Below the pieces are notes generated by a model. The model worked only from the letters and a program-made list of their open reading frames with translations. It made no database searches and had not been told where the DNA came from. The position numbers were made by a program, and so were the translations under genes. 64,000 nt of DNA. Origin: Bryoerythrophyllum caledonicum (Eukaryota; Streptophyta; Bryopsida; Pottiales; Pottiaceae). Positions 19,957-62,995 of the stretch are shown in pieces. Each line of letters begins with the position of its first letter. Position 1 is the stretch's first letter. The stretch lies in contig OZ020517.1 of assembly GCA_963971425.1 (NCBI GenBank), positions 15,409,297-15,473,296 on the forward strand, in the 5' to 3' direction.

Positions 19957-20047
19957 CGTGGGCGCCTCACGTTGTACTTAAACATAATCCCCCCGTGGAG
20001 AAACGTCACGGTCGAAGTTGGTAGGCACTGCTACAAATACAAGCGTA

Positions 20048-20792
20048 CTATAAGGTGTCACGGTGTTGAGCGATCGACAAGTTCTCCATGGCCATGGGCA
20101 TAGCCCGCTTTAAGAACTCTGCCCAATCCTGTAGACAGTGGGCCCATCCCTCTGGATTGTCCAAATCCACAACCGAAGCCAACTTTTCCCGAACGAAACT
20201 CGGTAAAATTAGCTCCCGCCCGTATAACAATTGATACAGAGTGAAAGCAGCCAGTGAAGCCTATCGGCTAAACCGGTACGCCATGGCAATCCATGGTATC
20301 ATTAGATCCCAATGACGGTGGCCACCCCGAAGTAATCCATATTTCTGTAGGCCCCGCTTCACGATCTGAACCACACCCTCTGCCAAACCGTCCGCTTCCG
20401 AGAGATCCCGAAAAGTCGTACGATGGTCAATCAAACATTGGTACACAAAATTTTGAAAGCCCCAAGGAACTCACGTCCTTGGTCTATCAAAACCTTAGCT
20501 GGGGCTCCAAACAAGCCAACACCCGATCAAGGAATGCCATGGCCGCCAACTCTGAACAGTTCTGCGGAAGAGCCACGAACTCAATCCACTTGCTGAAATA
20601 CTCCACCATCACCAAGACATATTTGGCTCCGCGTAGAGTCACGGCAAGTGGACCAACTAAGTCTATAGACCACCAGTAATATAGCCCCATAATGGGCAAA
20701 GACTGTAACTCAGATGATAAGGTGTTGAAGCTGGATCTAACCCAATCACATACTTCACACCAAGAAACATACGTGGCGACCTGTTGATACAC
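20048..20792 (-). other. integrase core and C-terminal region of the Ty3/gypsy fossil
   Basis: Recognisable stretches include YVSWCEVCDWVRSS (end of the HHCC zinc-binding part), SIDLVGPLAVTLRGAKYVLV (first catalytic Asp of the DDE core) and FRDLSEADGLAEGVVQIVKR (core end). The gap to the N-terminal part is filled by a later insertion. Confidence 0.75.
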
Positions 20793-20793
20793 C

Positions 20794-22670
20794 CCGGTAT
20801 CCTGATGGAAATTCTTCTATCATGTAGATATTAATACCAGTGTGGATATGTTTTGATTACAGCTAGTGGTTAGATGAGGTAAAAAGGTTTGGTCGTGGTG
20901 AGAACCACGGTTTGAGGATTTGGGCAAGTGTTAGCATGTAGGTGCTGCACCGCTCTTGTCACTGCTCAGGGGGGATAGGTAGCGGGTTGACTGGTATTTT
21001 TCCTGCCTCACTAGCGAGCCAAGCCGTGGGCCGCCCAACCACTCGACGGGCTCGATCGGGTTTGAACTCGGACCGGCGGTGGCCACTGACCACGACATTT
21101 CCAGCCAACCAAGTCCACGACTTGGCGATCAGGTTGTGCGAATCAACACCTTTATACGTCCGTACCATCAGCTATCTTACGATAAGTTTTTTTTATTTAG
21201 TTATTTTTTTTATTTTACTTATCTTGTTGGTTGGAAGGTTTAAGTTTTTAGTCTTCCAATAAATAAAAGACTAGGGGATTTTTATATGGTTGAAAGTGGA
21301 AAGGATAAGAAAGTAATGAAGTACCTTGTGGGGTACTTTGGATAGGGTGACATGAGCTGGAGTGCCCACGTCCACTTGAGGTGGAAAATGTTAGGGGGGA
21401 GATTCCTTAGGGAGTGAGTGTGTGTGTGTGTGCGGGGGAAAGAGCAAGGGTTTGGAGCAGAACTTTGGCTGTGTATAACTCGTTGAGTTTGAATGATATG
21501 GAATTGAAAATTTGTGATCTTGTTCTTGTTTCAAGAGCTTTCCATACTCGTTTTAAATTTTGAATTCGGAGTTGTAGAGAAAAAGTTATTGAGGTTTTAA
21601 TTCTGTGAAAACCCGAGGCCATCCATTGAGGGGCAGAGGTTTCGAGGAGCCACAACTTCTTTTGTAGTTCTCAATTTGATTTGAGATTTTGAAGGACTGT
21701 GCATCTCTATCTTAGCTTTCTAGAAAGATATTACAATTGAGATTTGGAGTTGTGAGCAAGAAGTTATAGAGATCTGAATGAATAGAGGTAGGTAGAACTT
21801 TGATTGTCCATAACTTTTAGACAGTAGTTTAGAATTGTTTGAGAATTGTAAGGTGCGTGAACCATGGTCATAGCTCTTCAAAAAGTCATTACAATTGAGA
21901 TTTGGAGTTTTGAAGAAGAAATTATGAGCGATTGAATATCTGGAGGGGCAGAACTTTGAACTCGTATACCTTTCGGACAGTAGTTTAGATTGACTTGAAA
22001 TTTAGAGGAGTGTTAGTTGTCTGAATTAGCTTTCTAGAGAGCTATTACACTTAGTATTTAAATTTTTGAGTCATCTGTGTCACTTGTTTGAAGGTTACAG
22101 CCTTGGTGAAACTTTTCCATTGTGTTTTTGAACACTTCTTCTGAGTTTCTTAGTGTTTTTGAACACTTAAAGACTTTGGAGTTGAAGGATGGAAGAATTG
22201 AAGACTTGAGGCTTGAAGAGAAGAGAAGATGGAGACAAGTGTGTTGTGGCTTGTGGTCCGATTTCTTTTTTTGTGATTCCAAGCCAGCTTTGGAGGCTAG
22301 TTGTATTTCAATTCTGTTCTTGTAAACTCTGTTGCGGCGAAGTTGGGTTAATTGCCCACATGGTCGTGTTTATGTCGTTCCCACCGATGAAGCACGTTTG
22401 CTGGTCACCGTGGATTTGAATTTTAGGAGCGAATCTTTCGGACGGTTTCAGCTTGTGGTCTGGCCGTCCCGTTTTACCTGTCCGAGGCCGTGGTTTCTTA
22501 TCATCCACCTTTACCCTTAACCTTTTAGAGCCACCACATGATAGGCCAACGGAGAGGAGTTTGAAGACTGAAGTCCGAAGACCACAAGATTTGACAGAAC
22601 TCCGTAGCAAACTATACGAAGTCGCAGCCAGATACCTCGCATATTCTCAAAGCGCACTCCTCTCTACACG
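20794..22670. mobile_element. 1.88-kb element inserted in the integrase region, flanked by 5-bp repeats
   Basis: ACACC lies on both edges (20789-20793 and 22671-22675), and integrase similarity resumes directly beyond each edge. The insert has no coding domain. It contains three to four imperfect tandem units of about 160-177 bp between about 21450 and 22070 (sharing TTACAATTGAGATTTGGAG). A 5-bp duplication and no genes fit a solo LTR of another family, but TG...CA ends are not evident at these borders. Confidence 0.6.
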
Positions 22671-22945
22671 ACACCGGTCCACCAATATTGGCTGCGGAAT
22701 ATCGAATGAGTCCGTTGCACACCAAAATGTCCTAGGTCTTTGTGTACTTGCCATACCAACGAAGCTCTCTGATCTAGCCTTGGAATTATGCATCTAGTCC
22801 CATCTGACCACACCCAAAATGGAAGGACGTTTTCCCAACGGAACCTTACTATTTGGTGCCCAACTTTATCATGCTCCATAGCAGAAAGAGCTGGGGGAAG
22901 TGTTCCATATTGTAGCTTGTGCAAGACTAGACCGTCTTTCCACAC
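22671..22945 (-). other. integrase zinc-binding N-terminus of the Ty3/gypsy fossil
   Basis: Contains IIPRLDQRASLVWQVHKDLG, then HFGVQRTHSIFRSQYWW, which is the H-H half of the HHCC motif and the YWW block typical of gypsy integrases. Confidence 0.75.
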
Positions 22946-23249
22946 ATTGCTAACAACTTAGGCCCCTATCTGATTCCTCATACGTAGCCAAATCAGGCAA
23001 CGTCAATGTGGAGCAAGACATCAACGTCAGATAAATTGCTGCATGCTACCTGACACCAGTCAAATCCTCCTCCAAAGGACTTGGATTGCGAGACTGACCA
23101 TCTGCATCCAAGTTCGTGATGCTGATCCAATGTACAACCTCAAAGTCATACTCCTCAAGCAACAAAGCCCACCTGGCGAGCTTGCCAATAAGCTTGTGAG
23201 ACTCTATGAGCTACTTTAAAGGCTGATGGTCGGTCATCAACGTAAAATG

Positions 23250-23504
23250 TTACCCATATAAATAGGGCCTAAAATGGGCTATGGCCCAAATCGCAGCCAA
23301 AGCCTCCCGTTTATAAGACAAATAGTTGGACTCCCCATTGTTCTTGCTCCTAGAAGCAAACGCCACAACGTACGCTCTTCCTCCATCATCCTTCTGAGTC
23401 AACACAACCCCCAATCCTACAACACTCCAGTCTGTGTGCAATTGAAAGGGTTGTATAGCATCTGAACGCCGCAACACAGGCGCTAAACTGAGGTTCAACT
23501 TCAA
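23250..23504 (-). other. RNase H domain of the Ty3/gypsy fossil
   Basis: FQLHTDWSVVGLGVVLTQKD, VVAFASRSKN and YLSYKREALAAIWAIAHFRP are the standard Ty3/gypsy RNase H landmarks. Confidence 0.85.
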
Positions 23505-23579
23505 AGTAAGAAACGCTTGTTGCTGCTCCCGTCTTCAAGTCCATGGTTAATCCTTTCCTGTAAGAATAGTCAATGGTTT

Positions 23580-24230
23580 AGCAATAAAATTAAAGTTCTT
23601 GACAAATCGGCGATAGTAATTTGCCAAGCCAAGAAAAGCTCAAAGCCATGACACGTCGGTTGGGGCAGGAATCTTTTGCAACGCATCCACTTTGGCTTGC
23701 TACACGCCAAGACCCCCTAAAACAATCATATGTTCCAAATATGGCAACCGGTTGTGGAAGAACTTGCACTTGCAATGGTGCAAGCGCAATCCCTTCTACC
23801 GTAACCGCTTGAACACCGCCTGAAGATGCCTCACATGCTCTTGTGGATTGCTACTAAAATTGATAACATCATCAATGTAGCATCGAACAAACGATACACT
23901 GGTCAATACCCGGTCCATCACCCTCTAGAACTCAGCGGGTGTGTTCTTGAGGCCAAATGGGAGAAACTTCCAATGATAGAGTTGATCTCTCCCATCTTGA
24001 TCAACCCTCCAAAATGGAGTCTTCACTCGGTCACCCATCATCAATGGTAACTGGTGGTAACCAGATTGCAAATCTAAGGTACTAATAACTCTAGCGTGGC
24101 GCACCGCATCAAACAACTCCTCCGGCGTCGACATGGGATACTGGTCTGACTTGGTCATGCGAATGATCGGCTTATAATCCCCACGCATCCGCTTCTCCGT
24201 CTAGTTGCCAAAGATATCTTTCTTCTATAA
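23580..24230 (-). other. reverse transcriptase domain of the Ty3/gypsy fossil
   Basis: ISTLDLQSGYHQLPL, TPFWRVDQDGRDQLYHWKFL and PFGLKNTPAEF identify a Ty3/gypsy reverse transcriptase. Thumb-like sequence continues towards 23580. Confidence 0.85.
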
Positions 24231-24576
24231 CCGTGGCACAAGCGTACCCGCCATTAGAGAGCTCAATCAAGCTGGCAGCCAACAACTCCTGACAACGAGT
24301 CTGAACCCCAACTTTCTTAGAGAAACTGAGCTTGTACGGTCAACTTAAGATTGGATGGTCGTCTTTGAACTGAATGTAAATAGGCTTGCCTCTATATCAC
24401 TCCATATCATGGAGACTAAAGGCAAAACAACTACGATACGAACGTATAAACGTTTGTACCCTCCGTGCCTCGGCACCGATAAGATGTGGCCCCAAATCTG
24501 TAAGCCAATCATCAAACTCCATGGTCTCCTTCTCCACTGTAGAAGACTCACTGCGTACCGGCACAGCCATTGATTG

Positions 24577-25758
24577 CTACTTGATAGTAGAGAGGGCTTT
24601 GATACCCCTAGACTCCTCACTCACGGGATCCATAGAAAATCCTGTGTTGTGATGATAAAATCCGGCAAAGATATCCCGAGCATCTTCTTGACCTAAGTCC
24701 TTGGCCAAGGTTGCAAAGACACGATGAACATAAAGCTCCTCAGCTACATGCCTCTTCAAACAAAAATACAACTCCGCTTCCTCAATCTTGTGAGATGTGG
24801 CATTGCTGCCTCCAGACCATGTCGTCCAAGATGTCATCGACCTCAAGGCACACAGGCCATTGCACTTAAGCAAGTGCAGAGGTGAGCGTCGCCGATGATG
24901 CCATGTTGGTCCAAATCCAACGTGGCTGATGGGCGTAAGAACCCTATGTTGCGGTATCAACAAACGTCGGGGCGCCATGAAGGTGATAGATGTATGCTCC
25001 ATCCTCACGCACCTTCGTTCGTGTATCCTCCAATGAAGGTACATTCTCAAAAATGTATCGCGGTGGTGTCGATTGGTGGGTAATCCACCACTGATGAGCT
25101 TGAGCAAATCTGTAAAGAGACCCGACAGTGGATCATCTAAGCCACGTCCACTGCCCGTCCATGAATGGTCTTGGCAAGGCCATCTGGCAATCACCAAATC
25201 CACGTGACCTAATCGGCAAAGATCATCCTCACTGATGAACGTCACATCACGTGGCAACTTGCGAAAACACCTGCAAATGACAGAAGGTGGTAACTGCTCC
25301 GGATACAATACTAAAAGACGCTGAATGTGATGGTGAGCAGCACGGTTGGCTGCAAAGCCACTATCCACGTGGATATATAGACGTACCTTGAGCCCAACCT
25401 CTAACACAACCGCGAGTACTATATCAATACCAACAAATAGCTCCATGAGGGTAATACCCTCATCTGGTGGTCGCCATTGAATAGTGCAAGCCAACAACGG
25501 AGTGGAAGAGTCCGCTGAAAGCTGTGGAGCATCAATAGCATCCACAATCTCTTGACATCGGCGTGTGAGCTTCAATTGAGTTCCCCATGGAGGAAGGGGA
25601 TCCTTGCAATGACGTGCGGAGATCTCCATTGATCTGTGCTCACGTGATTCCGCTACCCCCAACATAAAAGCATATGTATCCTCGAAAAGCGTAGAACCAC
25701 ATGGCAAATCGTATGCCAAAGCACTGCACCTGAACATTGCATTTGCCGTAGAAGTCAC
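24577..25758 (-). other. C5 cytosine DNA methyltransferase-like domain within the Ty3/gypsy fossil
   Basis: A 393-codon open stretch between protease and reverse transcriptase. It shows motif I-like ITLMELFVGI, a second-strand-like YIHVDSGFAANRAA with an acidic residue where SAM ribose is held, DDLCRLGHVDLVIA leading into the catalytic motif IV WPCQDHSWTGSGRGLDD, and GLFTDLLKLI, in the order of DNMT3/DRM-type enzymes. The C-terminal third is harder to place. Cytosine C5 methylation of the element's own copies is the proposed role of such domains in related elements. This copy is treated as a fossil. An unrelated Rossmann-fold protein is the alternative, but PCQ with the surrounding order argues against it. 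Confidence 0.75.
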
Positions 25759-25897
25759 CGCGCTAATTACAAAGACAACAACAATGAACTCCTTTCTACC
25801 ATTACGGGCAGACCATCCAGGCCTAATCCAGGCGTCTTCCTTTCAACTATTCACCCAAAAACCAAGGAGATAAAGCGCCTGCTAACCCACCTAAATG

Positions 25898-26134
25898 TCA
25901 TAATTGGTGGCGCCAGTTACAACGCACTGGAGAGACACGTGGGAGAACAAGAGACCAGATCCAACGCCGAACATCAACTGTAACGGATGTCGGGTGTAGC
26001 CCATGGCCTTCTCCGTGCCCCCCAAGAGATGTAACAATCGTAAGTGGGCAAGGCTCGAGGTCCGAAGCACCTAGACCCAAATCTTGGACTAGCTGCTTGC
26101 CAATCATCATTGGCTCAGCTCCGGAGTCCAACAT
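25898..26134 (-). other. aspartic-protease-like domain of the Ty3/gypsy fossil
   Basis: LDSGAEPMMIGKQLVQDLGL matches the retroviral-type protease active-site region (D-S-G-A). It lies between gag and the DNMT-like domain. Confidence 0.7.
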
Positions 26135-26901
26135 AACACAGAGAGGGTAGCTCGGGTGGAGTTTTCATCCGTACGATCAACCACCATGACTCCGTCGTTG
26201 TTTACTAAATGTACCACCGCAGGACACACAATGCATCGTTCTCGTGCCAACCGGGCTGCAATGTCAGATTAATAAGCCACTCTTGAGATCAAGGACTGAT
26301 CCTTGGAGGACTGCTACATAGGTGTAGAAGTAGTATTGGCCTCAAACACAAAAATGGCCTCCGCCGCCAACTTTGCCCGTATTGCTACCAAATCCTCTTC
26401 GAAGGGTGGAGCGATCACTACCTGCAATACCTCCAACGATGGCATGGACACCTTGCCCTCCAAGATATTACCCGCCAAGTGGAATACACCGGATGGTTGA
26501 AAATCCAGTGTCACATAGTCCACACCGGCAAACACCGGCAACTACAACACCTTATACGCCAAGGTGTATGTGGCATCTCCACGTGTGGATGAAATCAGTA
26601 GGACCGGGGTCACAGTTGGAACGGCAATAGAAGTTGCCACATCCGCGATGTTGAACGAAAGAGGTAACCAGGACTTATCAATGTGGTCCGGCAATCCCGT
26701 GTGGCGTGGACGGCCACTTCCCCCTCGCACAGAGGGAGAAGGTGCCACAACATGTACGGTAGTCTGAGCATGAATGGCAACTGCTGCCACCGCCTCCCTT
26801 GAAGCGCCATACAAATAGCGATCTAAGGCTAAAGGTGAGCCCTAATCCCTCTCCGGAGGTTGTGTGTTCACCACTTGCTCCAAAGATGCCATCGCGCTCA
26901 T

Positions 26902-27876
26902 CTACTTTTTCACCTCCGCCATTTTGGCTTGGAGTTTCTTCACAACATCCGATTCAGGAGCAGAAGACTCTGGGCGCTTCTCTAGTTGAAGAGCCAAATA
27001 ATTATCAACACTGTGGCCAGACTTGTCACAATAAGAGCATGTCACAGCCTTGTTCCCCTTGCCCCCAGCCTTCTCTACAGCCTTGGCCGCTTCGGTCTTC
27101 GGCTTAGTCTTCACGGTGCTTGCCTCTTTCTTCATCGAGCAATTGGGGTCCCCCTTAGTGTGACTCGCCTTTCCACAAACCCAACAATGCACAACCTTTT
27201 CAGGTTGTGCATCCGCCAAGCTACCAATCGCGGTGGCAAGCTTCTTGGGCTTAAGAGCGTCCATCAACGCCATGATCAAATCCGTGGCCTTGCTCACGCC
27301 CAACGCTCTATCAAGCGCCTCCACCTAAGCAAACGAATGCGCCAAAATGACATTTTAATGATACCAAAAAAGAAGATGTGGACTAATCAAACTCCACCAT
27401 CCGCTTATCCAACTTTGAAATCAAAATCTTTATCAGCTGGTACTCCGTGAACACATTGTCAGCCTCCGCTGACAATCGTGCCAACGGAGTATACATAGTG
27501 CAAGGGGTATCATCATTCTCTCGGCGGAAATCTTGGATGCGCTGCATTTGATCACGCTTGAATCCCCCATACCCACCTCGAAATGCACCATGAATTGCGC
27601 CAAAGGATCAAAGGCTGACAGATTGCCAACTGCCATCAATGCTGCAAGTATAGCCACGGCTAAACGTGACATGGTCCCCATGCCAGACCGTTCGGCTACA
27701 ACGGCAATGCCCTTGCCTTGAACTCCTCGCCGAGGAATCCATCTTCCACCTTGGGCTCCAAGGTGGAAGTCGAGAGTTGGGCAACCGCACTCTCCTTGAG
27801 TGCAGTTACCAACTCCACACGTTGGCGCCAGTATTCCTCTACGAGACGCAGCTACACATCGTGTTGCATGGTCCAC
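26902..27876 (-). other. gag region with zinc knuckles of the Ty3/gypsy fossil
   Basis: CWVCGKASHTKGDPNC and CSYCDKSGHSVDNY are knuckle-type zinc motifs embedded in Lys-rich sequence. Further gag-like sequence lies to the right up to about 27.9 kb. 27.9-29.37 kb would be the untranslated leader. Confidence 0.65.
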
Positions 27877-48658: not shown

Positions 48659-48668
48659 CTATGTTGGC
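48659..48668. repeat. left target-site duplication CTATGTTGGC
   Basis: Identical to 62986-62995, immediately outside the two terminal inverted repeats. Confidence 0.9.
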
Positions 48669-48727
48669 CAAGAACTTGACCATGTGAGCGGTCGGTGAGC
48701 AGTCGGCGTGAGCGGTGAGCGGTGAGC
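48669..48727 (+). repeat. left terminal inverted repeat of the Mutator-like element
   Basis: 59 bp starting CAAGAACTTGACC. The inner part contains five GTGAGC words, three of them in tandem as GTGAGCG units (CGTGAGCGGTGAGCGGTGAG), likely transposase contact sites. Confidence 0.9.
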
Positions 48728-48832
48728 AGAAAAGTTGGATTTATTTTTTGGATTTTTTTCGATTTTGTTATCTTTGAGGGTCGAAAGTTGTGGGTCTTTT
48801 TCAAGTACAATAACTAGTTTTTGTCTCGTGAT

Positions 48833-48997
48833 CCTATAACCGTGGTAGGATATTTACATGATAAAGGAAAATTAGATATTGTTAGGTGAAGTATATATCC
48901 TATTGCCGTGGAATTAATCTTGTTCAAATGCAATTGAAAAGCCGAAAATAGTCAAGTACAGCAATGAAATTGATAAGAGATGCCCATTACCGTGGAA
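48833..48997 (+). promoter_or_regulatory. left subterminal motif cluster (CCTATTACCGTGGA-like)
   Basis: Three variants at 48833-48847 (CCTATAACCGTGGTA), 48899-48913 (CCTATTGCCGTGGAA) and about 48984-48997 (CCATTACCGTGGAA). Inverted copies sit at 62690-62704 and 62796-62810 near the other end. Confidence 0.65.
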
Positions 48998-49327
48998 AAA
49001 TCAAACTTGTAAGATGGTGAGGAAGTCCATTGTTAGGAATGCCTGTATTCAATTTAACCATATGTTGCATTTAATTTCTTCTTATAACTCCATCTCCCAT
49101 ATGTGGTATCACATACAAAACAGGTTTTTAAAACATTGCCCCCAAACAAGATAATATGAAAGTTAAACGTGTGAATTGTATCATATTTAGACGGCAATAG
49201 TGGCTAAAGAATCACAATACCGTGTCTGATGCCAAGGAAGTTGGAACAAAGTATGAAATATATGAATAACATAGTAGAACAGTACTAGCAAACTAAAGCC
49301 ATATAAATGACAACAACAATAGAAAAT

Positions 49328-52300
49328 CTATGTAGAAGAACTTTCACTACCCTCGCGTGCCTCAACATCTAGAAATTGATGAACGTCGGGGTTGATACCA
49401 CAATGTCTTTGAACTAACGGCGGAGAATGCAATGAAGCATAGGCGTGAGCAATAGTCTCTACATATGATGGAAGCATAAATGACTTTGGCGGAGAATAGG
49501 CGGAGTCCATCAATCTACCAAACAACAATATAATTAAGTAATTATACTTTATGAAAGAATTGAAATATCAAGACGGCGAAAACACTGAAACAATGAACTT
49601 ACTTACTTAAACGGTTCTTTTTCGCCACACGGCGAATCGGAACTTCATCGTCATCAAAAGCATCAATTGCTGTAGGTGGAATTGATGAACTTGGTGGCGC
49701 TTGTCGAAGTGGACTAAGAAGGGCTTCAAAGATAAGTGGATCAGATTCAAAGCCTATCACATGCCGATGTAGCCTACTTCCTACTCGAATAGAAGCGCCT
49801 GAACCCGGTCAAAAACATAGCAAGATTCAGAATAGTTGAAATTCTAATGAGTTTAGAAAAATATCAATCACATCAAGTTATGAGTATTGCACCTGTAGCA
49901 GCAGTGGCATCCAAAATTACTGAGCCTGGAGTTGTGAAGGCTTCAACAAACATCTGCAAAAACCCTTCATCCTTTTCACGAGCTCCTCTCCATGGTATTG
50001 GACCATTCATAGCTTGAGACTCAGAGGATGTATAGTTGAATAGAACGTCGTCTTCTTTTAGATTAATACCAACCTTGGCTAGTTCAGCATCAACATGAAT
50101 CGAGAAGGAACTTGCTGCCTTTTCCTCACGGATGAAAAGAAAAACACGAAACCGGCGGGTCTGAAATGATACATTCAAAATTTAATCAACAATTTAATAA
50201 ACATGGAATGCAAAACATATATGACAAGAATTAGAATATCTCTCACTTACAGTATTATCAGAACTAACTGGAGAAGTTAGCCGAAGCTCATTTACACCCC
50301 ACCAATCCTTTAGAATCTTGAACTCGTATGATGCAGCATAAGTTCTCACATCCAACCGAATTGATGGAGACTCTGGGAGGAAAACCAAAAGACCTCCATC
50401 TTTGTGGAGAAACGCATCGGCAAACTCAAAAAACGCCTCAACATCCAACTTTTTATAAACATTCCAAGATGGAATGTCTATAGATGAATCAGAAAGACCT
50501 GGAATCGGAAGGCCTTCTGGAACATCGAAGAGTATAAAGTCCACACCACTGTGGGGACAAGCTCCTGATCGTGCAGGGCCTGCGGCATCACCCATCCCCT
50601 ACAAAATAGAGAAGAGTTAGTTATCCTGATGACTTATAACGAACATAAATTTTGAATTATATCAACACATTATGAATGCAATGAAAGTTGTATACCTCAA
50701 TTACTAATGCATGCATTTTTGAAAGCACCGAATGAGAGGGCCCCGTATCTAGAATCTCCGAGATAGAAGTCTGCTCCAACAAAACTATCGACGATGGATG
50801 AAGGAAAGTGGAGGATGGAGGTTTCAAAATTCGGGATGTCTTCTTTGCCCTCACATGTTGCGAGGTCAATTTTGAAGGAGGAAATTGGCTTTGAACAACA
50901 GTAGTTGCCCGAGAAGGTTGAGGATAACTAACATTAGAAGACGAAGGCATAACCTCATTGATGTCTTCTAATTGTTCCACAGGCACAGGAGCCTCCAAGA
51001 CGGAAGTGTCTCTGGCATTCTTTGCAGACCGAGACGAATTCCTTTTTGTCCCCTTCGTTTTCGAAACATTAGGTGGAACTACTGCTACGGCTGTGACCTT
51101 CTGAATCCCAACCAAAGATGGTTCAATGAGATCTCTAATTGCAATATCAAAGCGTGGAGGCTTTGAAATGGGACAATCTAGGTACCAGCCGCATCTCTCC
51201 CAGTGAGAGGAATTCCAGGATTTCTGGATATTATCAGATATCATGCAATCGTCACTGTCCACATCCAGCCAAGTGGCAAAAAATGCTGGAGACTTGGATA
51301 TTGCCCTGGTAGGATAAAGGATATATTTAAAATACCGATAGAGCACACGCTGCATAGCAGGCATAAATCCCACCTGCTGATCAATCAAAAGGTTCTTGTG
51401 AATTCCTTTTTCAACTTTGAACTCATGGAAGAATGCAGCATCCCATAGTTGGATACGCATTTGCTCGACATATTCGGAGATGGATGGAATGGGGTCCTCT
51501 CCATGTGGGTGATAGTCAATTGTGACTCCTAAATCCGCAACGGTGGTATCAAAAAGTCGCTCAGATTCCACTGCCAACTGAAAGAAAACAAATAAGAAAT
51601 TACGATTAGAAGTCATACCAGAAAATGGAAAACAAGACACTAGACCAATCAATCATAATAAGCACAAAAAATTGGAACTAACCTGACTCCACCAAGTAGC
51701 CCTTCGCAGCCACTCTGGAAATTCAGCATCTCCAAAACGTGGTTTTGGAAATTTCAATTGAATACGAAGTGAAGGCGGTGAGTTCCATCTTTCAAGCCAT
51801 TTGGTTTTGATATGAGACTCCATCACCGAGGTAGAAAACATCCATAATTTCTCCTGAGTCATTTCAGGCACCTCATTATTTTCATAATGTAGCTTGATTT
51901 GATGTAGAAAATCAGGTCCATGCTTGGGGTCGGCAGTTGGCACTTGTTTCTTCAACTCAATGAAGCATTGTTTCTTGACTTTGTTCACAGCGTTCGATAT
52001 GAAGTCAGCAGCCTTCTCAGAAGTCCAATCAGAAGGGTCTGGATACTTTTCGTGGAATCTGATCTATGCATTAGCTGCTGCCTCGTCCAACTCTTGCTGC
52101 ACAATTAAATAACTCAACCCAAAGTTAACTAACTTTACAATATACAAATTCAAAATTAAGATTGGAAAACTTGGTCATACCAAGGAAATAATGAAGGAAG
52201 TTCATACCTGGTTCAAGACTTTATTAAGTCCATCCAAAGTAAGAGTGTACCAAGTTCGCTGTTTTGATTTTTGCTTTGATTCAGCAAGTGCAATTTCATT

Positions 52301-55300
52301 TTGAGTCACTTCACCTTGGAAGAAAGAAACGGGTTGTGCTCCAATACTATTAATTCGGTAGAGTTTGTGAACCAGATTGGTGGTCACATGAGATTTCTGA
52401 TTCCTTCTGAAATTATCATTAACATGTAACTATTAATTGCACCAAATATGAGATAAATACATCGAAAAATACAAATTGACAGTAAGGAAATCGTACCAAT
52501 TGACTTGATGAAGTGCACTCAGAAGAGGACCAACTGCTCCATTAACATCCAAGATAATTGATTCCACGGCATAATGCCAAGCCGGGTCCTCAGAATGATC
52601 TTCATTAATAATTGGAATCCAGGCTTGAAGGCGATGGTTCCCGTCCCACACGTGGAACATTTTGTTGGAGAAACACTTTAAATCCTCGTCTTCAAGAAGG
52701 TGTTTCTCAAAAGTTGCATTGGCTACTTCCCAGTGAGGGCTCCACATATCGGTCACATCTGTGGTCACAGGGACGACCTTACCTTCATGATTCTCCAAAG
52801 CAACATAAAAAACCCCATTGCCTTCCATATATCCGTTACTCAGAAAATGGGAGGCCAAATTCATGACGTCGTTTTTCAAATAGGGTCTGACAATCGGTAA
52901 TGATATCATACGACAAAGTGGAATTTGTAACTTAGACTTTGTCCTTGGCTGAAACCTCAAGTTATCCAAGCATGAAGCAATATTGACTGATTCCTTTGAG
53001 ATCAAAGCCTTCATCTCCTTATTCAAGTCCTCCATTGAGATAGTGTCCTCGTCAAGAGGATGACTATTCATGGGATCATCATCTGCAATCCAACAATACA
53101 GAAATAGTCAATAATAATTCATGATATCAAAATCACGACCTTCGCCGGCACCGGCGACCCCTTCTACTTCGAGATGCACTAATTCAGATCTATGTTGGTT
53201 TGGTCCACAAGCGTCTTGTTTTGGACAGGATGGAGATATCCTTTAATAATTACTGACTGCCCGTCTTCCTGGTTTAGTTGAAAATCTTCTTGGCGACGTG
53301 CAATGTGCCGTCCATGTCAATCATGTCATGGTTGCATCCAAACCACATCTCATGATCTGCCCGAAAATCGTTCCTCTGCCCGAATTAATGGGAACTATTC
53401 AGGGCTGAAGTTGCATGCATTCCTGAGCAAAAAAGGAAGGATGACTCGTCCACGCAGTTGAAGATGGAAGATGGATATGATCTTCAAAATGTCCTGACTA
53501 TGTAGACCGAGCCCTCGTAGATGGTGCCCAATCCAGGAGCTCCAAATTATCGGCTGTGCTCCACTGCAAAATCGAACTGGACCACTCTCTGCGAAGTTGA
53601 GATCTCCAATTCGTGACCGTCGCCGGCACCGGCGAGCCCTTCTCTTTGTCAGTCTGGGAAGCTTCGAGACCATCTATCGACTCCCGCCGGCACCGGCGAC
53701 CCCTTCCACACCAAATTCTGTCCATCCGATCTATGCAGGTCGTGAGATCCTGCACGGAATAACATTGTTTATCAAAATTATACTCAACCACTCACTTCAA
53801 CATGATGTACATGTATGCAGCATTGTCCATCATGTGCACGCCCTCATGGTATTCGTAGAGAGAACTTATGAGCAAATTGAGATTATGAGCAGATTGAGAT
53901 TATGAGCAGAATGAGATTAAGTGCAAGGAAGCCAACCTCGTTCAGTGCGTAAGGGCACTAATTTATTTTAAGTCCACCGGGCTGTATACCATGAACTTGT
54001 ACACACCAGTTTCATGACGGATTCATGTAAAATTTTCCTCGTATCTCAGGCGAAGCTGAGGCTGAACAAGCTCGGTCTGGACTCGATTCTGGATTCGCGG
54101 CTGCACAGCGACTACCCGTCTTCATGGACGTGTCCAGCTTGGCCATTAGTGCTCGTTGTTCGATAAATGCAAATGTGCCACGATGCGGGTACGTAATATT
54201 ATGCATGTCAAGGTTCAGCTTCACGTTTGTGTGCGCTTAGGACACAAGCCTATGCTCGATATTGGTTGACGCTTTCACATTTAAAACTTTCTACTTTCAA
54301 GAAATCGTGATCTATATCCAACATGTCTTGCTGCCTCTACACATCAGAGCTTGATCCGAAGTGGTCTCCAAAAACTCAAACTGTTCCAAGAGTTTAGTCA
54401 AACTTGTATCCAGAGCTATTTTTCCCATAGATGTCAAAAGGTGCCAGTGGTGCCACCGTATTCTACATGTATGATGTCGTATTTGAACATGACAAGCTCA
54501 TTGAGGAATCTACACAGATAGTTGAAGGAAATGCAGTCATGAAAACTTGAACGTACCAATGATTTAGAAGTTGCGATCAACACCACAAGGAATCCAGTGA
54601 CCTTGTATCTGGGCTCCCTATGCAAGACACACTTAATTGCTTGGCAGAAACTGAACAGTTCTTCAAGAATGCGAGAATTGAACGTTCCTTCATCGCTTCC
54701 TGTAGCAGTTCCAGACTAATCCCTTGCTGTGGAAAAAACGTGGAGAATGAATGAGTCCCCTTGCGCGCTGTTGTTCCATACAGCATTGTACCCAGTTGAA
54801 TAACACCTGCAGGTTCGGAGGATGTACTGGCAAGTGTACATGTACTTGCAGGGCTCATGTGGGCCGGTCCTACGTACATAGGTTGTCAGACAGGGCACTC
54901 ACGGCAGCAGCAGCTAGCTGGAGCTCTCTATCACTGAATTGACGGACACGTGCACCTAGTGCCAGGCAGATGCCATGCACATGGTGCGCGCTTCAGCGAC
55001 ACCCCCAGCCGGCACAGGCGATACCCCAGCCGGCACCGGCGACACCCCAGCCGTGGATGGTGATTCCTTCCTCACACTCATGTTGCATAATACCTGCAGG
55101 TTCGGAGGATGTACCGTTAAGTCTGCTGGCACCACTGATCTGGATCGGTCCTTCGTACGTAGGTTCAGACAAGGCACTCACGGCAGCAGCAGCTAGTTGT
55201 AGCTCTCTTCTACTTAATTGATGGACACATGCACCCCGTGCCAGGCAGACTCCATGCACATGATGCGCGCTTCAGCGATACCCCATGCGCACCGGCGATA

Positions 55301-57628
55301 CCCCAGCCGGCACCGGCGACACATTAAATTCAAGATTCGGCGGCACCAATAAGAGACCATAACTTCAGGAGTCGGCGTGCATAAGAGTAGAATACATACT
55401 TAAGCCGACACTGTTGATCCCAGTCTCAGTAATCGAGAAGAAAGGCTGGAAGCCGGCACCGGCGATACCACAACATCAGGGTTCGACGAGCTTCAGGGCA
55501 GAATATAGACCCAAGCCTGCAGTACCGAGCGGTGAGCTAGTGAACAGGAGGTTGCATTTGAGGCTAACCACGACCCCTGCCGGCACCGACGATACCGAAA
55601 CTTGAGGATTCGACGTGCATTAGAGTAGAAAACATACTTAAGCCAGAACAAATCACCCCAGTCTGAGAGTGATTGATAAGAAGAGTTGAAGGCCCTCCTC
55701 GACCCCCGCCAGCACCGGCGATACCACAGCATCAGGATCTGACGAGCATTAGGGCAGAATCTAGACCAAATCGTGCACGTGCGATCCCTTGAGCCAGTGA
55801 TCAGGTGAAGGCGTTCGAGGCAACCAGAGACCCCCGCCGGCACCGGCGATACCCTAACTTCAGGATTTGACGTGCTTCAGGGAAGAATATTAACTAATGT
55901 TGGCACTGGCGACCCCAGTCTCGACGTGATCAGGTGGAAGCGTTAGAGGCCCTCCTCGACCCCCGCCGGCACCGGCGATAAGTTAACTTCAGAATTCGGT
56001 GATCAAATGGACGTCACTTTAAACCAAAATTGTAGTGGTTCGTGACCCCGCCGGCACCGGCGAACCCCACAACAACAAGTTCCGGGTTACCCTGAAAGAG
56101 GATAAGACCCTCGCCGGCACCAGCCGACCCATTGTAAGCCAGTTCGAAGTATCGAACTCTCTTCCCGATCATGCGAGATTTGGAGATAGAACTCTACTTC
56201 ACAAAGTTTAGAAATGGAAAAATGGAGAGTTCACGTCATACTTACCTGCTACCGAGTCGGCAGCTTGAGTGTTATTGTCAAGTTCAACAGGGCCGCCATC
56301 CTCGTCCTCATTCACCGTGCTCAAGTTCATGGCGTCCCAATCTCCGTCGTTGATAGCGTCTTCACTAGACTCAATTGAAGGCTGATCGGCCTGCATCACA
56401 ATCTACTGAAGTTAGAGGTAGCAAATGGGTTTGTGGAAGGATTCGTAAGCTGAACTCCAGATCCAATATACGTGGGAGGGTTTCAGTTCACACAGAAAAC
56501 GAGGCGTGGACGATTAGTGGGACGTGGATTACGCTGGACGCCACGAATTTTAGTTCCCACTGATGGATGAACGACATCCAAGTCAAGCTCTTTTAGACCG
56601 GAGTTGTACTGGGTGATACTGCTCCAACCTAAGTTCAACTGGGCAATACTGTTTCCTTTCGGGAAGTCACAGGTGGTACCATGAATTATTAAACTCATAT
56701 TTGCTTCAATTTAAACAAAATTCAAAGGGGAGAGGGACAATCCAAAAACAAAACAAAAAATCATTAATTAGAGGGAGAAGAAGGAAGTGAGGGACAATTC
56801 TGAAATAAAAAATCTAGATTAAAATCTACAATGGGTAAACTACAATCTCCAGGAAGGTTTGGAGGGGGAGAGGGACAATCATGAATATTTTATTCAACCA
56901 TGATAAATGGGGGGAGGGAGGGATGGAGCAATGGACAACTCATAATTAATAGTATACTATTATTGAAATCAGGAATAATCCAAATAAATAAATAAAAATT
57001 TAGAGGGAGAGGGAGAGTAAATTTTTTTTTTAAAAATTAAAAAAATTAAAAATGAGGGAGAGTAAAGTAAAAATAAAAATAAAAATAAAAAATATGTGAG
57101 GGAGGGTAAAATAAAATTAAAATTATAAATTACAGTGACAGACTGTATGGAAAAGAAGATTAGTTTGAAAGCATATCAACATTCACTTAGGTCCTAAATG
57201 ATTGTTCAATGCTAAATTCAATGAGTTCGATAACACAAAATAGATGAATCTAATGGAACGATTGTTACTTCACAAGAAACTAAACTATCCTATAAAATGG
57301 TATTTGAAGTATCAATGAGAACACGTACCAAATGTTCAAAGTGATGATTGCCCTCGTCCTTCTCCTTGTCTGAAATGTTGACATCCAGATGTTCTGTTCG
57401 CAATCCAGCAACCTCATCCATACTTGTCAAACTTACACTTGGACCGCTCTCAAATGATAAGACACGTGGAGTATCTCCTAAGTCTTCCTCAACAATCTGG
57501 GCCTTACGTTTTCCCATCCTTGCCTTCTTTAACTGCTTACTACTTGAGAAGAGGAGTCCGTGTTTTCTCCTCTTCTTCTTTCCCTCAACTAAATGAGCAG
57601 GTGTTACGGCGACAACTTTTACGAGCAT
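49328..57628 (-). CDS. ParB-like domain fused to a beta-class DNA methyltransferase-like domain (transposon cargo)
   Basis: Ten exons (57628-57329, 56390-56246, 53082-52497, 52403-52208, 52063-51683, 51577-50696, 50598-50251, 50160-49893, 49798-49603, 49514-49328) close in phase to about 1,162 residues. The N-terminus is basic (KKKRRKHG, KQLKKARMGKRK), a likely nuclear signal. Residues about 205-340 resemble the ParB/sulfiredoxin fold: IVRPYLKNDVMNLASHFLSN, then VWDGNHRLQAW in place of the ParB GERR box. A long middle region is unassigned. From about 849 the order is that of permuted N6A/N4C methyltransferases: VDFILFDVPEG where DPPY is expected, GGLLVFLP, then VILDATAATGAS (motif I, SAM loop) and RHVIGFESDPLIFEALLSPL. 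ParB-methyltransferase fusions are common in phages and bacterial mobile elements. The DPPY box is altered, so activity is uncertain. Exon 5 may instead start at 52096, which would include an in-frame TAG (52064-52066). An exon upstream of 57628 is possible. Confidence 0.75.
54785..55320. repeat. direct duplication of about 270 bp inside intron 2
   Basis: The segment beginning ACCTGCAGGTTCGGAGGATG near 54806 recurs from about 55091. Both copies include CACTCACGGCAGCAGCAGCT, the GTGCCAGGCAGA...CCATGCACATG stretch and a GCGCGCTTCAGCGA end followed by the GC-rich motif. Confidence 0.75.
55306..55990. repeat. 128-bp tandem array led by the GC-rich motif
   Basis: Motif starts at 55452, 55579, 55708, 55836 and 55965 are spaced 127-129 bases. 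Each unit continues with CTTCAGGATTCGACG-like and GGGCAGAAT-like words and ends in GACCCCC before the next motif. A diverged unit precedes it from 55306. Confidence 0.8.
56391..57328 (-). other. intron 1 of the ParB/methyltransferase-like gene, purine-rich repeats
   Basis: 938 nt between exons 1 and 2. The + strand carries recurring GGGAGAGGGACAAT-type words about every 60 bases from 56725 to 57120, in A-rich surroundings. No coding sequence. Confidence 0.55.
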
Positions 57629-58740
57629 CTGCAATATATCTTATCTACTCAGTGAGAATATCACATGGCAGTACATTGATATAATTCATCAACTGCACAG
57701 GTATCCCTTCAACTTAGACTAACGGAACTCCAATTGATGGCATCCATTCAATACTGTTCTCTTTCTACCCAGGACATATGCACCAACTACTGAATAAATT
57801 TATGGAAGACAATAACTTGAAACCCATATAAGCACAATTGTCAAAACATGCCTTAACAATCATAATGGGATATTAGACGCCGTGCATTTGTTAAGCTTAG
57901 ATTGGATATTGTCAAACACCGCCGAATTGAATGACCACTAAGAGGAGGGAATTCAAACATAGCAGTTATGAATTGTCAACTTCTCTATGATTAACCTCAA
58001 AATCCAAAGATGCGAACATCATGTCCATCATGCACATGATCGTTTCTATAGATGCTTGCATTTTCCGTAAAAGTACTATATGGTTATTCAATATGAGAAT
58101 TCCCGTTTGTTTAGGTATTAATTTGGTTTAAAATATATATCTATGCAACTTTCAAATACCAAGATTCGTTACCTTTAACTTGAAATGTGACTAACTATTA
58201 TGACCACTTTGTAGAGCTGTTAATATAACACCCCTTCGAATTAATAATTTACAGCCTATAGTTCTCGTCAATCATCTATTACCGTGGATGCTAATGTCGA
58301 TCCGGAGTTTCGCTCGAGTTGCTAGTTCATAATCACTATTATGCTAAATTAGATATTTTCTATTATATATTCTATACCATTTAGAATCAAATTTGACAAT
58401 CTCCTGAACATGGAAGTTACTTTTGATAATACTTTGAACTGACCGCTGGGCGCCGGTACCGGCGGACCTCTCCATGATGTAATTCAAAATATAACTAGGC
58501 AATAATGTAGGAATATTTTTTGCTGGTGTCGTTCATTTCTCACGATTACGTCGTTCAGTTCTAATTCTATCTAATTATATTATTTTGTACCATAATTATA
58601 TTGGTTGTATACGCCGCCATGGGATACCTAAACCAGTCCAACACGTTATCCATCCTTACAAACGACACCATATATGCAAGTTGAGAATGTTGCAAGAACA
58701 TTGGTAGGTATTGTTTCTCTTTCGCGTTTCAGTTTTTCTA
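57629..58740. promoter_or_regulatory. bidirectional promoter region of the transposon genes
   Basis: 1.1 kb between the two divergent genes of the Mutator-like element. AT-rich, no open frame of note. A TCTATTACCGTGGA word at 58275-58288 matches the subterminal motif, and a GC-rich variant lies at 58448. An extra 5' exon for either gene could be hidden here. Confidence 0.45.
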
Positions 58741-61700
58741 ATGGCATCTCTTCGATTCCATGGTGTTGGTGTTCCACTAATTATCCCTCCAGCAGTTGAC
58801 GGGTCATGCACTATCTTGGCATCAATACTTCGTGTTCGTTATGACCTAGATGTTAGAACAATTCATATCGAGCAAGAGGTGCTAGATGATGTAGGGGTTA
58901 TAGTCCAGTACATCTTAATGCCTGATATTGTCGAAGGCGGCAACCGATTCTGGAGGCTCTTGCCTGGTAGCTACAAAGTTAATGGTCTTACAGTAGTACA
59001 GATGGCAGCAAGCACTGAACTTGTCACGCCAGGATTGTCGACAACATCCATTGTTAATCCGATTGTTACTGTGAAGGTTGAACCTGGAACAGAGACTGTC
59101 ATATTGTTGAGCGAGGACGAGGAGCCTCCTTCAGTGGACCATTCCGCTTTGTCGCAACCTCGCGCTCCTTCTCAAGCTACAGTCAACCTCGAAGCACGAG
59201 CTTTTGATACCCGCCACCCCAATTCCGCTTCGAAACCACCTCGCTTTCCAACTCTATCACGTCTTGGGAGCATTGTAGACTCCTTGCGAAGACTCATCAC
59301 AAGACCTGGTGGGCGAAATGTTCTGAAACGCCTTGATTTTAATTCAGTTCCTGTCCATCAGGTAAATTTTCTACCCCCCCTTTACAATGGCGATGTCATT
59401 TTTGAGTTTGAGCCGGCGGGACTCAAGAGAAAGCAAACGGGTATGTTGGATGGTATGGACAAGCGATTTGACGGCCATGCATGGTGCCGAACGAAGACTA
59501 CGAATATCTAGAACGATATGGGTCTCACCTTCCGCTACTCAACATGCGCGGGGCACCTTCGCTGCACTAATCCGGATTGTGATTATCTTCACCGGGAGCA
59601 CCGGTTGTACGAGGTTAATGAGATAGAGTGGGACGGATGTACCGAGAATCCCTTCGGAGTGGGTGCAAGCCCACCAAGGAAGTCAACTTTGGTCTGTGGA
59701 ATATGTCGAACGCCTCCAATATGCATAAGTACGTGCGAGGCTCTTTTTTACTACGCTAGCGGACCCGGCGATATGACTCGTGCATGCATTCATGTCGGAA
59801 TGCACAACCATCCCGTGAAGGTTGGTGAATGTCGTGAATCTCTCCTCAAGGTAAAGTCTCTTTGTAGTGACCAGGTGTCTAGGATGCCAAGTGCTACCCA
59901 TTCTAAGATTGTTTTAGAGGCTAGTAAGGAGTTCTTAGGTGAATTTCTTCTTAGGAAAGACGGAGAGACGATGCAACCGCTTACTGTGGATGAGTTATAC
60001 AAAGTTGCGGACAAATTTAAATCGTTTACGTCGCCCAAACTACGACATACTGTGTCGGGTTTGAAAGCACTCCCCCGTCTGGGCCCAATCGAGGGAATCA
60101 CAAATCTGGCTGGTCTAAGTAACTGGGCGTACGTCCGAGAGAACAAGTTCCCAGGCCAGGGCAAAGGAAAAGTTTTTGTATTCAAGATGTCGGAGGTTGG
60201 TCCTGGTTCTGGCCTTGATTTAGTAATCCGAATGCAACCTGGTGGCGATTTACAAGACGCTTGGATGATGTTTGACCATGTCAAGCGTGTGAAGAATTGG
60301 ACGACCATGGCATGCCATGTTTACGATCCGGTATACTCCAAGGTCATGACTATCGCAGTCTGTGACATGCAGTCGGAGGACACTGAAGCGCAATCTCTCC
60401 TTTGGCACGGTCTGAATGGCGTCGTCATTGAGGCCGGACATTCAAAGCCAGTATTTAAAGGCTTTATGGCAGACAGTGCTCAGGCAAATTGGAACGCTGT
60501 CCGCATCATATACGGATCCGGAAGCGAGAAAGACAAGATGGTCGGCCAAGAACGAACTTGTCTATTTCATTGGACTAAGTCAATGTCCGAGCACACTGAC
60601 AGACATATCAAGTCTGAACTCCGTGAGCAACACCGAGTACTCTGCAGGCAGTACAAGGACTCCACTACCATCGCCGATGCAGAAGTTCGTTATCGTGCTA
60701 TAAGGGAGTGGTGGATCTCAGCAAAGGCTGTAACCAGCGATACAGACATTATGAAGCTAGACGAGTGGCTAGCGTTTTGGCATTTTCGCTACCTTCAGTG
60801 GGGTGGAGCTATGACCTTGGTGAGCAAGTCACTAATTCTGATTGTCTAATTCGCTTGATGTACCCTTTCAGTTAAAACTTTTCTATATTGGATGTTCGTG
60901 TAATTGATTAATATTTGCAGGATTTAACGGACGATGAGCAGGCAAGCATGCCAAGGTGCAACCTCGCTGAGACAATGCACAACAAATGGCTTCAAGCTTC
61001 TGGAAACAAGGGGAACGACCTCTTTGAAGCTACTTTGGATGATTATGTCAGGGCGTTCATACAGGTTACACATTATATTTCGTTCCTGAAGGGTGAACGT
61101 GGAGGTACTGGTCCTAGTAAGAACGAATTGCGATTGAGAAGAGCCCAAGACACTAGAGATCCCAGGAAAATCAAGGCAGCGATGGAGAAATTCCAGAATT
61201 CAGCGGACATCTTGACACGCCCTCCACATTTTTCAGGTGAGGAAATTTTTGGATCAACTAAACGCAAGCTCAATCTACCCCCAGGATCGGAGTTTGACTC
61301 GCATCGCCCGGAAAAGATCAATTTCTCCCATCCTCGAGTAGAGACTAGGTCAGCTAAGGCCCAGAAGACTTCTAAAGTCCTTGAAGAGGTTGTTGAAGAT
61401 GAAGACGTCGACGTCGGCATTGACCTTGGAATAGGACACGAAGATTCTCTTATGGACAACCTTCATGTCCGCGAGACTCGACCTACACATGTTACCGGGG
61501 TGGAGGAATCTGATTGCGTTGTAACAGAATGGCATATCACCCGAGTACCAAAACATCGCACCGGTATAGCTTGTTGGGCTCTCCAAGCTATCTCGAGGAA
61601 GCAGTGCACAAGGAAGATCATACAGAAGAAAAAGGCCACTGCCTGTCCCACTTATACGGGGATTTGGACGAATTACCACACAGGTAAAAATCAAAGACAA

Positions 61701-62389
61701 GAGTTTTATTTTTGCAAAGACGACATTGAGCGTTGTGTACTAGGCACTTCAAAAAAGTGGATTCTTACTCGCCCGGATAGTGTTCCCCAAATCTGGCCTG
61801 TTAAAAGGGGCACCAACCTGAAGCGGTCGGAGATCATTACCCTCGAGCGCGCAGGTTTCCAACTTCCACAGAATAAGAAGCGTCTCCCCGCCGTCACTTT
61901 CACGCAACCATAATTGATGGTATTGACCTTGCTGCGTACCCAATCCTAGAGGACGCTAACAAACATCCTACGTCCCGCTTTACTAAAGTGGTGAAGCGTC
62001 GTTCCGGCAGTCCAGTCGCTGCACAGTTTCAGCGATGGGGGTCTGCCCTCACTCTCAAGGCAAAAATTCAGAAGCGCACAATGGTACCCTTCCCAGGATT
62101 TGGCTGCATTGTCGATTTGGAAGTTGACTCCTCAACTACCCATGCCCTGGAGCACTACATTCTTACGCTCAGTTCATTTCCGGCTTGCACATGCTTGGAC
62201 TTTGTTTCAATGCAAGCAAAGGCCAACCGATCTGGTCGGTCTTGGGTGAATTGCAAGCATCTCTACTTTGTTTATGCAGTCGTATGCAAGCTTGACGAGA
62301 TGGAGGACTTATTTGTCCATGCTCCAACACTTAGCTTCAACGAACTCATGCCCGTAGTACGAGCGATTCTTTCCTACAAGCGTGTTTAA
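58741..62389 (+). CDS. Mutator-like (MULE) transposase with SWIM zinc finger, disrupted in this copy
   Basis: The frame opens at ATG 58741 (MASLRFHGVGVPLI). A Cys-rich DNA-binding-like stretch (FRYSTCAGHLRCTNPDCDYL) precedes the MULE core: TTMACHVYDPVYSKVMTIAV, CDMQSED, then FKGFMADSAQANWNAVRII with a catalytic Asp and CLFHWTKSMSEH, the C-x2-H typical of MULEs. After an intron (60820-60920, GTGAGC...TTGCAG) the frame runs to about 61913. The next open stretch (to 62389) ends in a SWIM finger (CTCLDF, then CKH). MULE transposases bind the inverted repeats and cut the element out. Two defects: an in-frame TAG at 59509-59511, unless a 150-nt GT-AG intron from 59362 removes it, and a one-base frame change near 61900, where the second frame is open across the join. 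This copy is probably inactive unless splicing rescues both. Confidence 0.85.
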
Positions 62390-62926
62390 AACTTAAGGTA
62401 GATAATAAGTTACTCATTATGTTTCTATAGACCTACGTATTATAAGCCTAGGTAATATTCTTCTATTGTTCTCTAATTCTAATTTCTATTTCTGTTTGTA
62501 TGTTTTTTGGATTATGAAGCTACATATTCAGTGTTCATTCCACTCCACAAATGTGATGATGCAAATCGCACAGTTCCTTTATTTGTTCCAAATTTCAGAC
62601 CAATCCCTGGTTTCTTTAACCCAAGAGAGTAATTTAGGATCTACATAGGCTAATATTTACAATTGTCAAAAACAAAATTTTGGCACTAGTTCCACGGTAA
62701 TAGGACCCCAACTTCCTGGATTTTATTGGTTTATCTTTAAGATTACGATGAGTTGAAATCACCTATAACCTTCATAAGAGGGCGGCTACAAAATACTCCA
62801 CGGTAACAGGTCCATATAATATTCCAAATTTCGACATCCATAAATCCCAAAACTTAATTCAGTATCCAAATTTTTTTAAAAATTGTGCAAATTTTGAAAA
62901 ATCCTAATTTTAGGTATCTAATCTTC
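62390..62926. other. right subterminal region of the Mutator-like element
   Basis: AT-rich, non-coding, between the transposase stop and the right inverted repeat. Contains the two inverted CCACGGTAAYAGG words (62690-62704, 62796-62810). Confidence 0.6.
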
Positions 62927-62985
62927 GCTCACCGCTCACCGCTCACGGCGAACGCTCTCCGACCGCTCACACGGTCTTGTCGTTG
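62927..62985 (-). repeat. right terminal inverted repeat of the Mutator-like element
   Basis: 59 bp, inverse of 48669-48727 with nine mismatches, most of them in the outer half. Confidence 0.9.
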
Positions 62986-62995
62986 CTATGTTGGC
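62986..62995. repeat. right target-site duplication CTATGTTGGC
   Basis: Identical to 48659-48668. Confidence 0.9.

Follow-up and report, generated by a model that had tools for sequence, protein, structure and literature searches.

How might a DNA transposon of a moss make use of a protein joining a ParB-like domain to a DNA-methyltransferase-like region? The question arises from a stretch of 64,000 nucleotides of Bryoerythrophyllum caledonicum (contig OZ020517.1, positions 15,409,297 to 15,473,296; hereafter the window), in which an earlier note had placed a ten-exon gene for such a protein between the inverted repeats of a Mutator-like element (MULE). We find that this accessory gene lies, opposed to a transposase gene, in a 14.3 kb element that carries an array of a 14–16 bp palindrome in fast-changing non-coding DNA and one more palindrome before the transposase. 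Judging from the sequence, we predict that a dimer encoded by the element, in all likelihood the accessory protein, binds at the palindrome, serving self-recognition and anti-silencing or autoregulation, and we rate the chances of this prediction as even.

The accessory gene lies within a multicopy mobile element

We searched the genome (437 Mb in 894 contigs) with a 1 kb probe from the accessory gene. Among the 40 of 150 candidates that were scored, at least 24 places, including the window, matched at 86–100% identity and at least 16 further places at 69–76%, in addition to at least five short pieces. Besides the window we read ten of the remaining 23 close copies whole, 11 copies in all; short stretches were read of all 16 distant places, and one of these elements nearly whole. 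Homology to the window ended within three bases of position 48669 in nine of the ten copies, copy 2 being without the left part, and within two bases of 62986 in nine of ten by BLAST. In copy 9 the BLAST match stops at 62946, yet the element end is visible in the sequence. Both ends are present in 10 of the 11 copies and the right end in copy 2, which bears out the proposed link of the gene to transposon ends. All nine other two-ended copies are flanked by private direct repeats, of 8–12 bp in the eight that were scored (eight exact bases in copy 1) and recognized by eye in copy 9, in a register that fits 9 bp. The window element, too, has inverted ends and a private 9-bp duplication, TATGTTGGC, so that the gene indeed lies between the inverted repeats of one transposon. 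Because of these homology limits, inverted ends and private flanking duplications, we conclude that the 14.3 kb moves as one unit, far larger than the gene interval 49328–57628.

Terminal inverted repeats together with 9-bp target duplications, as found in the window and the nine other two-ended copies, are those of a MULE. The suspected Mutator-like carrier is upheld by ends and duplications, whereas a Pfam match of the transposase to MULE was absent, both for the copy 4 protein (E up to 10) and for that of a diverged sister element (E up to 1). The label "Mutator-like" thus rests on duplication length, ends and a SWIM-like cysteine pattern called by eye. Weak matches of the transposase to PF23582 were disregarded. 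The transposase frame is open in copy 4 (1189 residues). Relative to this copy, the ratio of nonsynonymous to synonymous divergence (dN/dS) is 0.24–0.32 in eight of ten copies; in the close copies 2 and 3, with a synonymous divergence (dS) of about 0.02, it reaches 0.64–0.68, as expected of decaying sisters. Copy 9 is 98.4% identical to the window in its transposase half and about 91% in its accessory half, a mismatch that suggests exchange between copies.

A palindromic site is arrayed in non-coding DNA of the element

Intron 2 of the accessory gene aligns poorly between copies, yet the word CCGGCACCGGCG recurs in it. Allowing up to one mismatch, this word occurs 14 times in the window, always within the element, 12–21 times per copy in the others (n=10), 15 times in the sister element and not once in 54,370 bases of copy flanks. 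The stricter pattern GCCGGNNCCGGC occurs 10 times in the window element, 10–16 times in each of the ten other copies and 15 times in the sister, compared to zero in 54 kb of flanks and zero in the remaining 49.7 kb of the window. Nine strict sites fall in intron 2 of the window element, where 2000 first-order resamples gave a mean of 0.0015 and a maximum of one. The tenth precedes the transposase gene; the corresponding site stands 302 bp before the transposase start in the sister and is recognizable at an equivalent position in the other copies, though with changes in copies 2, 3, 4 and 10. The sequence around it is otherwise poorly alignable.

Across sites, column information is near zero beyond the 14–16 bp palindrome. 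When introns of copy 3 and the window are compared, 141 of 143 stretches of similarity include the 8-base core, as do five of eight between window and sister, counts of local alignments that are non-independent owing to repeats. An unbiased count of all 10-mers present three or more times in each of the two elements, window and sister, gave three words, every one of them the site. The consensus differs between subfamilies, being TCGCCGG-CA-CCGGCGA in that of the window and GTGCCGG-CA-CCGGCA in the sister, and at the outer pair C..G prevails in the former (7 of 10 window sites) and T..A in the latter (8 of 15). Exact sites in two further subfamilies, B and C, are of the T..A type. A second sister copy has 14 sites, which adds little because it is about 97% identical to the first.

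The sister element lies on the contig of the window, at 20.83–20.85 Mb, and is the distant element that was read nearly whole. Its accessory gene is 51–74% identical by segment and its transposase 77–80%, and it keeps the opposed layout of the two genes and the borders of exons 3–5. Since both genes stand in the same arrangement in so diverged a subfamily, the partnership of accessory protein and transposase is old. The elements of subfamilies B and C are partial or decayed: no transposase was found in the 9.9 kb read of B, and in C the transposase match covers only the last ~224 residues.

The accessory gene is under selection for its protein

The ten-exon model was recovered with GT/AG borders (57628..49328, minus strand; 1174 codons). 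Its reported closure in phase did not hold: in the window copy codon 344, at the exon 3/4 junction, is TGA (TGG in all ten other copies) and codon 421 is TAG (CAG in eight of the others, CAA in two). The roughly 1,162 codons counted previously result, by arithmetic, if two acceptors shift past both stops, which may be how the frame had been closed. AG dinucleotides near 52406 and near 52066–52064 are potential shifted acceptors that would each skip one stop. The transposase of the window element is broken as well, by a stop codon and a frameshift (Table 1). Under the ten-exon model, a wholly intact accessory gene is found in none of the 11 copies. Ten of them contain one to four stops, the window two; copy 7 has none but has lost four bases in exon 1. 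Further frame-breaking changes are a loss of one base in exon 6 of copy 2, which has also lost exons 7–10, and of 254 bases in exon 6 of copy 8. Other indels keep the frame (−3 in exon 2 of copies 5, 6 and 8; +3 in exon 6 of copies 5, 6 and 10). Copies 5, 6 and 8 also show a −2 in exon 3, but it falls on the splice border and appears in the alignment as a gap of three bases; an apparent −1 in copy 8, exon 7, finds no support in the translation of that copy.

Measured against the window, dN/dS of the accessory gene is 0.19–0.25 in nine of ten copies and 0.35 in the tenth, whose dS is a mere 0.016. By exon, the ratio among six representative copies is lowest in exon 3 (0.087) and rises to 0.61 in exon 1, which is therefore weakly supported; exons 7, 8 and 9 have values of 0.18, 0.20 and 0.38. 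The accessory gene is coding and selected for its protein rather than a chance open reading frame (ORF), and the broken copies present the usual picture of decay from a lineage under selection.

The protein combines a ParB/sulfiredoxin fold with an altered methyltransferase

The spliced translation contains the ParB-like stretch IVRPYL / DGNHRLQAW and, towards the C-terminus, DVPEG, VILDATAATGAS and FESDP in this order, as first described. Both folds were upheld, that of ParB/sulfiredoxin (ParB/Srx) in exon 3 by structure comparison and that of a permuted methyltransferase by profile match. DGNHR, the GxxR-type pocket motif of the ParB/Srx superfamily, is nearly invariant among exon 3 relatives (D 83/85, G 84/85, N 84/84, H 82/84, R 80/84). 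None of the 92 exon 3 family members had ParB among its Pfam matches, and a profile search of solved-structure sequences with this family did not find ParB; seven of the 92 matched DndB of DNA-sulfur modification (best 0.0011). The superfamily is defined by fold, a sequence-profile match being usual but not defining, and profiles can miss fold likeness. Because sequence profiles gave no ParB, the assignment is based on structure comparison and motif. A shallow AlphaFold model was discarded (predicted local distance difference test score 35.8).

Exon-wise database searches returned 121 relatives of exon 3 (120 listed) and 20 of exon 7, with uninformative names and mostly from short contigs, and a whole-protein search with the spliced copy 7 protein had no match among 6156 candidates. 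The exon 3 family is widespread in public sequence data, its most distant aligned members being 34–39% identical to the window exon. Scans for prokaryotic and viral relatives of exon 3, each run with one peptide pattern, yielded none that the family alignment confirmed; a lone-exon match on a viral contig covers 21 residues and was taken as chance.

The C-terminal half, with its motifs in exons 7–9, gave a methyltransferase profile match of 2.2e-7, above the Pfam cut-off, and a match to CcrM of 1.2e-4. With motif IV before motif I, it is by its sequence a permuted (beta-class) amino-methyltransferase fold of the N6-adenine/N4-cytosine (N6A/N4C) type, whose motif IV is without the usual catalytic residues: it is DxPEG-like, and the (D/N/S)PP(Y/W/F) of active enzymes occurs in none of 22 sequences. 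Motif I reads DATAATGAS in the window copy and DAIAGTGAS, the better form, in the sister subfamily. The methyltransferase half thus looks switched off, suggesting that this branch binds rather than methylates DNA.

Relation to known systems

Sola1-1_Ec32 of Ectocarpus encodes a 1104-residue protein with ParB-like and N4/N6 methyltransferase domains, opposed to its transposase, and similar green and red algal cases are cited with it (Iyer 2011, Petroll 2025; PMC12477816). By this description the moss protein is of the same type, with both domains in one DNA-transposon accessory protein of about 1,100 residues on the strand opposite to the transposase. Since such cargo has already been reported in algal transposons, the earlier note's view of a new kind of transposon cargo goes too far. 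The carriers differ, a Sola1 element of 21.5 kb there and a Mutator-like element here, and the moss element has a motif IV that is non-catalytic by sequence as well as binding-site-like arrays. PMC12477816 proposes that proteins of this type attach to the transposon that encodes them and modify it; the available part of it names no target site.

A further parallel is provided by the VANDAL MULEs of Arabidopsis, in which VANC proteins target arrays of short non-coding motifs that lie in one orientation, have spread via tandem repeats and differ by family (PMC5735166, PMC10398659). The moss element likewise pairs a MULE accessory protein with motif arrays in its own non-coding DNA, with growth by tandem repeats and family differences. 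A VANC/PMD-type domain had no Pfam match in the accessory protein (E up to 10). Unlike in VANC, the motif is a 14–16 bp palindrome, the folds are those of ParB and a methyltransferase, and anti-silencing is a prediction. Bacterial and phage ParB-methylases also join a ParB/Srx domain to an adenine methylase (PMC5512222), whereas the moss gene is spliced, belongs to a eukaryotic transposon, has several hundred residues between the domains and an altered motif IV. The C5-methyltransferases of algal retrotransposons (PMC5890265) resemble it as DNA-methylation-related transposon cargo but belong to another enzyme class and another transposon class. Extra ORFs listed for MULEs include SET, PMD and an Ovarian Tumour gene; ParB is not among them in the available part of that source, the text of which has no occurrence of "methyltransferase" (PMC6446971). 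Against the literature searched, three features are apparently new, rather than established as such: a carrier that is Mutator-like, the arrays of sites and the alteration of motif IV.

A predicted self-recognition system and its alternatives

The array, the palindromic form, the promoter-side site and the subfamily difference argue that the element makes a dimeric protein with sequence-specific binding, for which its ParB-fold protein would be the natural candidate; bacterial parS is likewise a 16-bp palindrome. We propose that the accessory protein would load on the array, perhaps as a nucleoside triphosphate-gated clamp like ParB at parS, and that the loaded protein would shield the element's own promoters from silencing or regulate them, in the fashion of VANC in VANDAL elements. 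The methyltransferase-like half might then be a reader of DNA or of its methylation and not a writer. A complete eukaryotic ParB–parS-like system run by the transposon, with loading at the palindrome, nucleotide-gated spreading of the clamp, anti-silencing of the whole element, a dead methyltransferase as reader and co-evolution by subfamily, is a more tentative proposition that we consider doubtful, though possible. For ParB-methyltransferase transposon proteins, the palindrome, shared by all 11 copies read and by the sister element, offers a concrete candidate site. If our prediction is true, a solution resembling that of VANC in flowering plants, a self-targeted protein with motif arrays, would have been reached from unrelated prokaryote-type parts.

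Several points weigh against our prediction. When two mismatches are allowed, the 12-mer has three matches in the window beyond the limits of the element. Not every site has symmetric outer bases: they occur in 7 of the 10 strict window sites and in 8 of 15 sister sites. Site orientation, mostly uniform, is mixed in copies 5, 6 and 8, at 11 to 8. Site counts are not independent, as the array derives partly from tandem duplication and the ten copies are related, and few sites occur in the partial or decayed subfamilies B (one exact plus degenerate ones) and C (about two). ParB reads DNA sequence through its helix-turn-helix domain; no such domain was identified in the accessory protein, in which exons 4–6 had no Pfam match. 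The ParB/Srx fold alone names no DNA site, and the transposase could be the binder.

Were the palindromes sites of the transposase or of a host factor, the accessory protein would act otherwise, for instance by nicking in excision or repair. The site before the transposase gene and the DNA nicking reported for a bacterial ParB-methylase (PMC5512222) fit this explanation, but no strict site lies within the terminal repeats, the expected target of a transposase, and nine of the ten strict sites are in the accessory-gene intron; we regard it as possible, yet on the improbable side. The accessory protein might also be an active N6A/N4C methyltransferase that the ParB domain targets and that protects or activates the element's own DNA by methylation, as PMC12477816 proposes for similar proteins and as the earlier note surmised. 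The methyltransferase profile matches, the selection in exons 7–9 and the better motif I of the sister are in keeping with such self-marking, which nonetheless is made unlikely by the DxPEG-like motif IV, with the active-enzyme form in none of 22 sequences, and by the motif I of the window copy. Marking by methylation is thus weakened. The palindrome arrays do lend support to an action of the protein on the element that encodes it.

That the sites are a functionless minisatellite spread inside the intron is suggested by tandem repeats of 20–21, 128 and 257 bp, which contain many of them. Little but the palindrome is common to the sites, however, both subfamilies have a lone site at the promoter of the transposase, and the subfamily difference is symmetric in most sites, so that we hold a mere minisatellite to be quite unlikely. 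Least probable is the chance capture of an ordinary host gene in the manner of a Pack-MULE: acquisition of host genes is known in MULEs (PMC6446971), but here many copies hold gene and transposase together, selection acts across copies and the pairing is kept in a diverged subfamily.

Table 1. Features of the Mutator-like element in window coordinates.
Feature	Position	Strand	Remarks
Whole Mutator-like element, 14.3 kb	48669..62986	.	limits of inter-copy homology, inverted ends, flanking duplications
Target-site duplication, left, TATGTTGGC	48660..48668	.	9 bp
Left terminal inverted repeat	48669..48727	+	59 nt, 85% complementary
Right terminal inverted repeat	62927..62986	-	
Target-site duplication, right, TATGTTGGC	62987..62995	.	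9 bp
Accessory exon 1	57329..57628	-	start uncertain: TTGCAG immediately 5' of ATG; dN/dS 0.61
Accessory exon 2	56246..56390	-	no blastn match in copies 3 and 4
Accessory intron 2	53083..56245	-	9 of 10 strict palindromic sites; elsewhere fast-changing between copies
Accessory exon 3	52497..53082	-	ParB/Srx-fold domain, DGNHR motif at codons ~295-299
Accessory exon 4	52208..52406	-	exon 3/4 junction codon TGA in window copy
Accessory exon 5	51683..52096	-	in-frame TAG at 52066-52064 in window copy
Accessory exon 6	50696..51577	-	
Accessory exon 7	50251..50598	-	methyltransferase half, motif IV position (DVPEG)
Accessory exon 8	49893..50160	-	motif X-like stretch; first part of motif I (VILDATAAT)
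Accessory exon 9	49603..49798	-	remainder of motif I (GAS) and FESDP
Accessory exon 10 and stop	49328..49514	-	
Intron array, first site TCGCCGGCACCGGCGA	53142..53157	+	
Intron array, middle strict sites	starts 53620, 53684, 55027, 55304, 55450, 55834		
Intron array, last two strict sites	55963..55978, 56048..56063	+	
Palindromic site GCGCCGGTACCGGCGG	58450..58465	.	289 bp 5' of transposase start
Transposase exon 1	58741..60819	+	TAG at 59509-59511 in window copy; open in copy 4
Transposase exon 2	60921..62389	+	frameshift near 61870 in window; SWIM-like CxC...CxH at end, by eye

Surroundings in the window

A decayed Ty3/gypsy-like retroelement occupies 19597–27324 on the minus strand. It comprises a zinc-knuckle-like ORF (26902–27324), followed by an ORF (24577–25842) that matches the C5 cytosine DNA methylase family in Pfam at 22.4 bits, the cut-off being 22; pieces resembling reverse transcriptase, RNase H and integrase were recognized by eye from 24200 down to 20490, together with a PHD-like piece. 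With this C5 methylase match, methyltransferase-like cargo is present in two transposons of the window that are unrelated to each other (compare PMC5890265). Neighbouring ORFs match the exostosin GT47, serine carboxypeptidase, F-box and Ariadne families in Pfam, in keeping with a plant or alga. Two divergent single-ORF neighbours, at 6949–8322 (minus strand) and 9033–10442 (plus strand), are alike by eye, and the latter matches exostosin GT47 at 3.7e-26.

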